DNA from: Catenulispora sp. MAP5-51
Lineage (GTDB): Bacteria; Actinomycetota; Actinomycetes; Streptomycetales; Catenulisporaceae
Assembly: GCF_041261205.1 (NCBI RefSeq)
Contig: NZ_JBGCCH010000054.1
Location: forward strand, 1-39,126
Direction: 5' to 3'
DNA length: 39,126 bases
A model generated the notes under the pieces. That model did no database searches and was not told the origin of the DNA. It saw only the letters and a program-made list of their open reading frames with translations. This document shows positions 1 through 32,049 of this stretch, one piece after another. A program made the translations under genes and the position numbers. Position 1 is the stretch's first letter, and the number at the start of each line of letters is the position of its first letter.

Positions 1-30242
<30,242 letters not shown>

Positions 30243-30514
30243 TACGTGGCGGGGGTCGGTTTGTTCGTTGGTTGACAGGCGACAAGCGTTTTCTGACGGC
30301 TTCGCGCAGGGTTGGCGGGATCCGTTGGTGGCGCGGGTCGGGGGTGGTGCTGGTTTCGGGGGGCGGCGGTGGTGTGGGCAGGTGGTCGGCTCTACTGCGA
30401 AGGGCAAGGTCAAGGGCTTACAGGCGCCTCCGGCGGCGCCTGCGCGGCGAGCGGCCTCGCTCCGGGGAGTGGGGGTCGCGCTGGCTGCCGGCGGACGATG
30501 CTTGTGGTCGCCTC

Positions 30515-30584
30515 TGTCCCGGATTCCCCGCCGCTTCAGCGCCCGGAGGGAACCATCCCGGACTGGGCGGTGTCAAGCCGGATC
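30515..30584 (+). repeat. 70-nt unit, copy 1
   Basis: It starts TGTCCCGGATTCCCCG and ends GGTGTCAAGCCGGATC. It pairs with copy 2: 30551-30582 is complementary to 30609-30640 with one mismatch in 32, around a 26-nt loop. Confidence 0.9.
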
Positions 30585-30607
30585 ACACGCTGCTGTGGTT
30601 GCGCCTC

Positions 30608-30678
30608 GTCCGGCTGGACACCGCCCAGTCCGGGATGGTTGTGCAAGCACCGCCGAAGCGACGGGGAATCCGGGACAA
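30608..30678 (-). repeat. 70-nt unit, copy 2 (inverted)
   Basis: This is the reverse-strand copy. Its outer end, 30651-30678, is perfectly complementary over 28 bp to 30775-30802 at the start of copy 3, so copy 2 can pair with either neighbour. Confidence 0.9.
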
Positions 30679-30775
30679 CCCCGGTCTGTGGGAAGGGTTC
30701 CCGCACCACACGCACACACCGCCTGGCCGCCGCTGTGCCTCACCGAGTGGACCCCGTCCACACCACAGGCGGGTT

Positions 30776-30846
30776 TGTCCCGGATTCCCCGTCGCTTCGG
30801 CGGGCGTAGCCAAGCAGGCCGGGCCGGTGGTGTCAAGTCGCTGATA
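30776..30846 (+). repeat. 70-nt unit, copy 3
   Basis: It has the same start as copy 1 (TGTCCCGGATTCCCCG) but a different core (AAGCAGGCCGG). The segment 30812-30840 is complementary to 30869-30897 in copy 4, with two mismatches in 29. Confidence 0.9.
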
Positions 30847-30864
30847 CCCGGCCACCAGTTCTGC

Positions 30865-30936
30865 GATCCGACTTGATACCACCGGACCGGCCTGCTTCCG
30901 TAAGGAGACGATGCGGCGGGGAATCCGGGACGAAGG
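30865..30936 (-). repeat. 70-nt unit, copy 4 (inverted)
   Basis: This reverse-strand copy shares its core with copy 3 and not with copies 1 and 2. The four copies therefore form two subfamilies, one per hairpin. Confidence 0.9.
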
Positions 30937-31026
30937 CGACCACAAGCAGCGTCCGGCAGCTAGCAGCGCGACCCCCACTCCCCGGAGCGAGGCCGCTCGC
31001 CGCGCAGGCGCCGCCGGAGGCGCTCT

Positions 31027-31068
31027 TGACTGTCGCCTCTGACTGTCGCAGTTGATCTTGACTGTCGC
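31027..31068 (+). repeat. Three direct copies of TGACTGTCGC in the right arm
   Basis: Exact 10-bp copies lie at 31027-31036, 31040-31049 and 31059-31068. The left arm has a shorter, different sequence at the equivalent place, so this is an arm-specific expansion. Confidence 0.9.
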
Positions 31069-31219
31069 AGTAGAACCGACCACCTACCCACACCACCGCC
31101 GCCCCGCGAAACCAGCGGCACCCCGACCCGCGCCACCAACGGATCCCGCAAACCCTGCGCGAAGCCGTCAAGAGACGCCTGTGCCTGTCACCCCCGAACA
31201 AACCGCACCAGGAGCGCCG

Positions 31220-31252
31220 ATAGGCCCGCCGCACTTTGCGCGGCGGGCCTAT
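31220..31252. terminator. Hairpin terminator between convergent operons
   Basis: A perfect 13-bp stem (ATAGGCCCGCCGC at 31220-31232, its complement at 31240-31252) encloses a 7-nt loop. It lies 44 nt downstream of the minus-strand oxygenase stop and also beyond the NRPS on the plus strand. There is no T-tract, as is common for actinomycete terminators. It probably acts in both directions. Confidence 0.75.
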
Positions 31253-31296
31253 CCGTGTCCTGCTAAAGGGCTCCTGAACGTACGCCCGACTGCCGG

Positions 31297-32049
31297 TCAG
31301 GCGTTGGGGTGCAGCAGGTCCATCGTGTCGTGGGTGACCTCGCGGTCGAGGTCCTCCAGCGAGCAGTAGCTGAAGCACACCATGATGCGCTCCACCCCCT
31401 CGGCGATGGGGGTCACGTGGTGCAGGGAGGTGTCGGTGCGCATCAGGTAGGCGGTGCCGGAGGCCGGGTGCCGCCGGCGGATCTCGCGGGTGGCCAGGTA
31501 GTGCTCCAGGCGCGGGTTCTCCTTGTCCCAGAAGGTGTCGGGGATGTACTCGACGTCGCCGCCGCAGCCCTCGGGGGTCGACTTGACCACCCAGACCACG
31601 GCGAAGGAGTAGTCGTCCCAGTGCCAGCCGTGGACGTCCCCGGGGCGGTCCATCCGTGCCGAGATGTACTCCTCGGGCACGTAGGGCACCGGCAGCACCT
31701 CCTGGCCGGCTATCTCCGACAGCCGCTTGAGCAGCGCCGGACAGTCGAAGACCGCCGGGATGACCGAGCTGCCCGCCAGCAGGACGTCCCGGTCGAGGTT
31801 CGAGAAGTTCCGGGGCGTGTTGCCGGTCGAGGGCACGAGGATGTCGCGCCGTCGGCTGCGGGTGTCGTACAGGTCGGCCAGTTCCTGCTCGGCCCGGTGT
31901 GCCAGGGCCGGCGGGAGGAAGGATTCGAGCTCCACGTAATCGTCTTCCTTGAATCGTTCGGCCAGTGCCGGAACGAGTTCCCGGAATGCGGGGGAGTCGA
32001 AATGTTCGTGCAGTTGTTCTGTGACGCTGAGCGAAGTCTGCAGACTCAT
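31297..32049 (-). CDS. Fe(II)/2-oxoglutarate-dependent oxygenase
   Basis: This 250-residue protein looks like a non-haem iron, 2-oxoglutarate-dependent dioxygenase. The putative facial triad is H143-W-D145 (in GWHWDDYSF) and a distal His in TSLHHVTPI (H210 or H211), with R221 a candidate for binding 2-oxoglutarate. Having Asp rather than Gly or Ala in the HxD motif favours hydroxylation over halogenation. The chosen start, ATG 32049, has GGAAGG 6 nt upstream. An earlier in-frame ATG at 32190 overlaps the exporter stop (ATGA), but the intervening 47 codons look non-coding, with many A/T third positions. It is second in a two-gene operon behind the exporter and beside the NRPS, so hydroxylation of an amino acid or of the peptide is plausible. 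The exact family and substrate are inference. Confidence 0.8.
   Translation of the reverse strand: MSLQTSLSVTEQLHEHFDSPAFRELVPALAERFKEDDYVELESFLPPALAHRAEQELADLYDTRSRRRDILVPSTGNTPRNFSNLDRDVLLAGSSVIPAVFDCPALLKRLSEIAGQEVLPVPYVPEEYISARMDRPGDVHGWHWDDYSFAVVWVVKSTPEGCGGDVEYIPDTFWDKENPRLEHYLATREIRRRHPASGTAYLMRTDTSLHHVTPIAEGVERIMVCFSYCSLEDLDREVTHDTMDLLHPNA

Follow-up and report, generated by a model that had tools for sequence, protein, structure and literature searches.

A gene-free nested palindrome in a Catenulispora gene cluster belongs to a genus-wide family of protein-less transposable elements

Bacterial MITEs usually measure a few hundred bp, and a size criterion of below ~600 bp is applied to them, while in eukaryotic foldback elements (Galileo and others) long inverted-repeat arms make up most of the element. 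REP, BIME and REPIN sequences are described as short palindromes tied to tyrosine transposases (PMC2817692). DNA template switching has been reported to overwrite hairpin arms and give rise to double changes (PMC8794818), and arm homogenisation and spacer inversion have also been attributed to it (PMC8604942).

The window analysed here, a stretch of 39,126 nucleotides of Catenulispora sp. MAP5-51, includes a natural-product gene cluster with a large gene-free block, which is explained as a mobile element. The block is a nested palindrome and represents a copy of a genus-wide, protein-less non-autonomous transposable element of Catenulispora, a conclusion that is well supported, the assignment of the window palindrome being based on the family and not on the window copy alone. 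No paper on these palindromes was found among openly licensed PubMed Central papers.

Anatomy of the window copy and its repeat family

The gap at 30257-31205, between the NRPS and its tailoring operon, consists of a nested inverted repeat. The NRPS lies on the plus strand and ends with a TGA stop codon at 30240-30242, and the tailoring operon, convergent to it on the minus strand, has its stop side at 31297. Self-comparison reveals stacked inverted-repeat arms at 30424-30537/30910-31023 (114 nt, 92%), 30341-30413/31052-31124 (73 nt, 88%) and 30282-30343/31121-31182 (62 nt, 92%), with an outermost pair at 30257-30272/31190-31205. When aligned with its own reverse complement, the whole palindrome shows 76% identity (E 4.5e-186), far above chance. 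The description of the gap as one imperfect inverted repeat, given in an earlier note on this DNA, is borne out by these arms and by the self-alignment, and the perfect 60-bp match that the note had reported was confirmed from the sequence, its left half at 30424-30483 (plus strand) and its right half at 30964-31023 (minus strand).

Self-comparison and the comparison of arms between copies delimit a left outer arm at 30257-30514 (plus strand) and a right outer arm at 30935-31205 (minus strand). Between them, two hairpin units were recognized by self-comparison and covariation, each composed of an X stem, an inner stem and a loop: unit 1 at 30515-30677 (inner stem 30551-30640) and unit 2, its inverted relative, at 30774-30934 (inner stem 30812-30897). 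The centre between the units (30678-30773) is closed by a unit-to-unit inverted repeat at 30650-30683/30770-30803, as seen in self-comparison. The nested repeat is thus located where the earlier note had placed it, but its boundaries are not those of the element, as full copies elsewhere reach further, to terminal repeats and 8-bp duplications. The window copy of this multi-copy family is assigned to 30230-31218, with both ends degraded. On the right, alignment identified a shortened terminal repeat at 31206-31218 (minus strand) that ends in CAGGAGCGCC at 31218; it is adjoined, on the tailoring-operon side, by a terminator-like hairpin at 31219-31253, detected by self-comparison. On the left, the end is perhaps near 30230, where a weak gapped alignment to the left end of copy L073 (shuffle p ~0.02) tentatively suggests a degenerate terminal repeat at 30230-30256 (plus strand) that would include the NRPS stop codon. 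The window copy is without a target duplication (TGGCTGGA vs GATAGGCC), and a search with the right flank of the cluster found no syntenic counterpart in the genus, so that there is no empty site for this copy. The five open frames across the window copy gave no Pfam match, indicating that no protein is coded, in agreement with the previously noted lack of a transposase.

The palindrome is not a single-copy sequence, a finding that would have spoken against an interspersed element. Used as a query against its own genome, it gave 92 matches on both strands at 39 places or more; this is a lower bound, as 40 of 306 candidates were scored, although a copy interrupted by a contig end may have been counted as two places. 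With a shorter query, further copies were found in the same genome. The suggestion that the palindrome is an interspersed structured repeat, present in many copies with common boundaries, is therefore upheld by the search of its own genome, with approximately 40 places. The hairpin unit was present in 10 of 10 Catenulispora genomes and in none of 137 others of the order searched (covariance model R1 of the inner hairpin, stricter filters). In a named genome collection the exact core pattern occurred only in C. rubra, in six stretches, while viral contigs yielded no exact core match and plasmids no match to the element. Full copies measure ~1.03-1.07 kb. Two remnants in the host genome (L136:3921-3990 and L142:4235-4503) retain a terminal repeat with little or no palindrome core and are apparently internal deletions.

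The terminal inverted repeats of full copies have the form GGCGCC[C/T]CTGAC...TGTGTGGGTG (~25 bp), and this pattern had 37 matches in the host genome, compared with 0 for a reversed control. Both ends were recognized in 21 of 44 copies examined. A perfect flanking repeat of length 8 was found in seven of these 21 copies and one of length 7 in a single copy, and none was observed at lengths 4-6 or 9-12; among 420 control cross-pairs, a 7/8 match occurred in 3 and an 8/8 match in none. The 14 two-ended copies that lack a perfect target duplication count against this picture. Moreover, two of the seven perfect duplications possibly represent one event, since the ten bases that flank L131 on either side are identical to those of L133 (both in genome G006), with the two copies oriented oppositely; a duplicated segment or a repeated target would account for this. 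The duplication of L094 is also perfect with the end set one base further in, and that of L124 is perfect with its outer end.

Three pairs of ends on different contigs of the host genome have a common 8-mer (TCTTTTGG, GAATTTTT and AAAAAAGA). The end copies of contigs C11/C23, C32/C47 and C15/C64 match pairwise in these flanks, each pair most simply representing a single copy that was split by the assembly. In two of these pairs, the copy on one contig is separated from the contig end by 0.5-0.8 kb of other sequence belonging to an IS3-type insertion. Target duplications could thus help to order contigs by suggesting which broken ends belong together.

Element-free sites were sought for four of eight prepared loci (L062, L063, L070 and L073). 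The flanks of L063 without the element could be aligned in G008, G004 and G009, and those of L073 in G008, G006, G004 and G002; no insert of element size was present at these relative sites. Small insertions or deletions, up to ~115 bases (in G002), surround the empty spots in relatives, and for this reason it is only in the comparison of L073 with G006 that the target can be followed almost base by base. As to the other two loci, one G008 search match crosses the L062 junction, and the two flanks of L070 lie 15 bp apart in a G008 search match. A non-autonomous mobile element, one of several possibilities raised earlier, is accordingly supported by common boundaries, terminal repeats, 8-bp duplications and element-free sites in relatives; the empty-site comparison proposed with it succeeded for L063 and L073, whereas the right flank of the cluster with the window copy showed no syntenic counterpart.

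Covariation of the hairpin units and matching of the outer arms

The interior of the element is made up of two ~160-nt hairpin units (155-162 nt) within the long outer arms, and 98 such units, 89 of them distinct, were found. Covariation was assessed in 42 units from five genomes over 46 pairs, of whose 1932 stem cells 98.3% are paired; with the partner offset by 1-3 columns, at most 49.4% stayed paired. Both-sided changes affect 16 of the 46 pairs. Double-changed cells number 181 vs 60.2 in shuffles, a value reached by 0 of 500, but as they stem from a modest number of alleles in related sequences, independent events are far fewer than 181; for further pair types, the observed count was reached in 50 of 500 shuffles. 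Insertions of an entire base pair occur at two places, in 14 and 8 rows, respectively, and at both places the two stem sides agree in 42 of 42 rows, either both having or both lacking the extra base.

Very strong covariation in both units might reflect a mobile structured RNA, the element being transcribed and its hairpins kept by selection on the folding of the RNA, which might serve as an RNase III substrate or a source of antisense RNA. Conserved sub-blocks in both arms would agree with such a role, as would the position at gene 3' ends, where read-through transcription would make RNA, and in a less strict count over half-units the balance is tilted mildly towards the minus strand (66 vs 96, p 0.02). 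On the other hand, mismatches in the unit stems comprise 20 G-T, 14 A-C and 19 other cells of the 1932 (G-T vs A-C, p 0.39), and as a G-T mismatch reads as A-C on the opposite strand and both kinds are rare, neither strand exhibits clear wobble tolerance. Mismatches in the outer arms are also even between the strands (169 vs 156, p 0.5). Furthermore, no Rfam family reached its gathering score in the window, where the matches were confined to nine sub-threshold ones, eight of the microRNA type and one to a bacterial sRNA. A structured RNA is regarded as unlikely on these grounds. Because G-T and A-C mismatches are about equally rare, DNA-level homogenisation of the arms by template switching would fit the covariation of the stems better than RNA selection, although it is not proven.

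Long-range pairing as the sole fold was considered and rejected, as 18 of 39 elements were informative and in 15 of these the X stems favour pairing within the unit; the window copy is one of the three exceptions. No inverted loop was detected in 42 two-unit elements (31 with a marker clear on both sides and 11 with a variant marker, judged by eye), which counts against very frequent switching at the loop.

The outer arms match each other within a copy more closely than expected from permutation (own-arm identity 0.815 vs 0.776 permuted, p 3e-4, 20 copies). The right arm closest to a given left arm is that of the same copy in 7 of the 20 cases and that of another copy in the remaining 13. In L066 (0.96) and L089 (0.95), both arms contain variants that are absent or nearly absent from other copies, while L060 and L082 have a common divergent block in opposite arms. 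The pattern looks like occasional arm-to-arm copying combined with shuffling between copies. The earlier assertion that arms so long and so well matched must be recent or under selection therefore proves too strong: most copies find their best arm elsewhere, a few copies have been re-matched in blocks and no wobble bias is apparent, and DNA template switching can give matched stems without selection.

Taken as a whole, these observations are very probably best explained by a genus-wide, protein-less transposable element with ISL3-type ends, whose hairpin-dimer interior would be rewritten by template switching and recombination. Such an element would be moved in trans by an ISL3 transposase; its interior is an inverted dimer of the ~160-nt hairpin unit inside long outer arms. 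The arms may fold back while single-stranded during replication, template switching could then use one arm to rewrite its partner, and arms would be shuffled by recombination between copies. A host role is not needed to explain the element. The more specific idea of a self-correcting palindrome, whose hairpins stay matched not through RNA selection but because one DNA arm repeatedly serves as the template for its partner, the paired one-base-pair insertions included, is put forward tentatively, as a serious possibility that falls just short of a probable one. If true, the hairpins would exhibit textbook 'compensatory' covariation without being RNA, so that covariation alone would be no proof of a functional RNA, and the 98 units, with the unit present in all ten genus genomes searched, would provide a natural measure of template-switch rates in bacteria. 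In any case, they constitute a dense data set on whether template switching alone can keep long stems paired; the same question, template switching vs RNA selection, is raised for RNA genes in PMC8794818.

Insertion sites, the ISL3 partner and nested insertions

Most copies have inserted at A/T tracts close to the 3' ends of genes. Of 46 flanking 8-mers, 30 contain a stretch of four or more A or T, compared with 0.33% of random host 8-mers; the count is 27 of 43 without three probable second halves, and 25 of 41 when two ISL3 sites are also left out. The gene context was derived from a home-made gene caller, which called a wrong left gene for the window and left 2 of 40 copies (L066 and L126) spanned by an open frame. 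With the fortieth copy unclassifiable, 39 copies were assigned to 19 convergent, 18 tandem and 2 divergent gene pairs, vs 20, 66 and 23, respectively, of 109 background neighbouring pairs (convergent excess, p 5e-4; divergent deficit, p 0.024). Of the 18 tandem copies, 15 are no more than 60 bp away from the stop codon of the gene upstream.

The excess of convergent pairs and the rarity of divergent ones could be taken to indicate a domesticated bidirectional terminator or insulator, copies being kept between genes where their hairpins stop transcription from both sides. However, the same positions follow from the preference for A/T tracts, which is directly visible in the flanking 8-mers, and from the loss of insertions that break genes or promoters; in addition, the window already has its own terminator-like hairpin next to the element. 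Domestication of this kind appears rather improbable. Insertion specifically behind terminator hairpins was examined as well and found no general support, as upstream folding was not stronger than downstream folding (16 sites, p 0.40); L073 and the C. acidiphila ISL3 IS do sit behind clear hairpins.

The ends of the element point to its likely mover. The host genome contains a truncated transposase with the Pfam domain DDE_Tnp_ISL3, ending in the terminal repeat of the element (end GGCGCCTCTGACCTATGTGTGGGTGG). In C. acidiphila, an intact IS of 1403 bp is flanked by a perfect 8-bp duplication (CATTTTTC) and encodes a transposase of 425 aa, assigned to ISL3 by NF033550; its ends differ from those of the palindrome at two bases of 24. 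Homology between the palindrome and the ISL3 element is confined to the ends (~30-50 bp), with no significant similarity beyond, and the possibility of an internal-deletion derivative of the ISL3 element was discarded on this basis. The earlier statement that the palindrome matches no insertion sequence thus holds for the interior but not for the ends, which are of the ISL3-family type. Among the best 30 of 46 ISL3-type matches, ends agreeing in at least 20 of 24 letters were limited to the C. acidiphila element, the host fragment and a copy in G002. No intact ISL3 element with matching ends was seen in the host genome, which has only the fragment, a result that counts against present mobility, and none was seen among the loci retrieved from G006 and G008 (30 loci examined), though both genomes are rich in copies. 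The likely driver, an ISL3 transposase that would act on the element in trans, therefore exists but is scarce. A different ISL3 element of C. rubra (L213:1402-2801), with ends GGCTCTTCGC... and the 8-bp duplication CTTTTTGT, again occupies an A/T tract, and a preference for such targets may be shared by these ISL3 elements.

Several copies have themselves received insertions. L073 (contig C9 of the host genome) harbours, at 3509-5036 and near the palindrome middle, an IS256-family IS with a 451-aa transposase (NF033543) and its own inverted ends. A transposase inside a palindrome with an 8-bp outer duplication would suit an autonomous form, making the element a member of the IS256 family with the transposase in the palindrome centre. 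This reading is very improbable, and IS256 was ruled out as the parent because inverted ends belonging to the insert itself adjoin the palindrome centre and the insert is single-copy in the genome; it splits an otherwise intact palindrome, whose outer ends match the ISL3 element instead. An IS3-family element interrupts copies L075 (3597-4150) and L088 (1-820), on contigs C15 and C47 of the host genome (NF033516 for the L088 frame). Both insertions fall at roughly one position, in the apical loop of a hairpin unit, and the outer target duplications of the two copies are not the same, which hints at targeting of the hairpin loop by an IS. In C. acidiphila, an IS110-family transposase frame (NF033542) is situated in the outer arm of L124 (2637-3881), the outer 8-bp duplication of this copy still being perfect.

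An assembly artefact, that is, an inverted duplication at a contig joint, is very improbable even though 15 of 21 examined contig ends of the draft host genome lie within 8 bp of an element match, as the arms differ by substitutions, the copies have unique flanks with target duplications, and palindromes of similar size (~1.1-1.2 kb) exist in C. acidiphila, whose genome (10,467,782 bp) was finished by Sanger sequencing, which shows, for the doubt raised earlier on this point, that the kind of structure is not produced by assembly.

Comparison with known systems

The element resembles ISL3-family IS in its terminal repeats, which begin with GGC, in its 8-bp duplications and in its A/T-tract target, as seen in the C. 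acidiphila and C. rubra elements; unlike them, it has no transposase and no internal ISL3 sequence. As with the interspersed extragenic palindromes of the REP/BIME/REPIN type, movement in trans is envisaged, but the 8-bp duplications and ISL3-type ends set the element apart, and because of these target duplications, mobilisation by a REP-associated tyrosine transposase is unlikely.

Bacterial MITEs and other non-autonomous IS derivatives likewise lack a transposase gene and display terminal inverted repeats, a duplication of fixed length, many copies and the ends of an autonomous element. The palindrome element is larger, its interior does not come from the partner IS, and it is entirely a nested palindrome. 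As full copies exceed ~600 bp, it is not claimed as a MITE in the strict sense; in the wide sense, the family has the features of one, namely terminal repeats with constant ends, a fixed 8-bp duplication, no protein and a partner with the same ends. Eukaryotic foldback elements are similar to the palindrome in their long arms, from which the Catenulispora element differs in being bacterial, in having ISL3 ends and in enclosing two internal covarying hairpin units.
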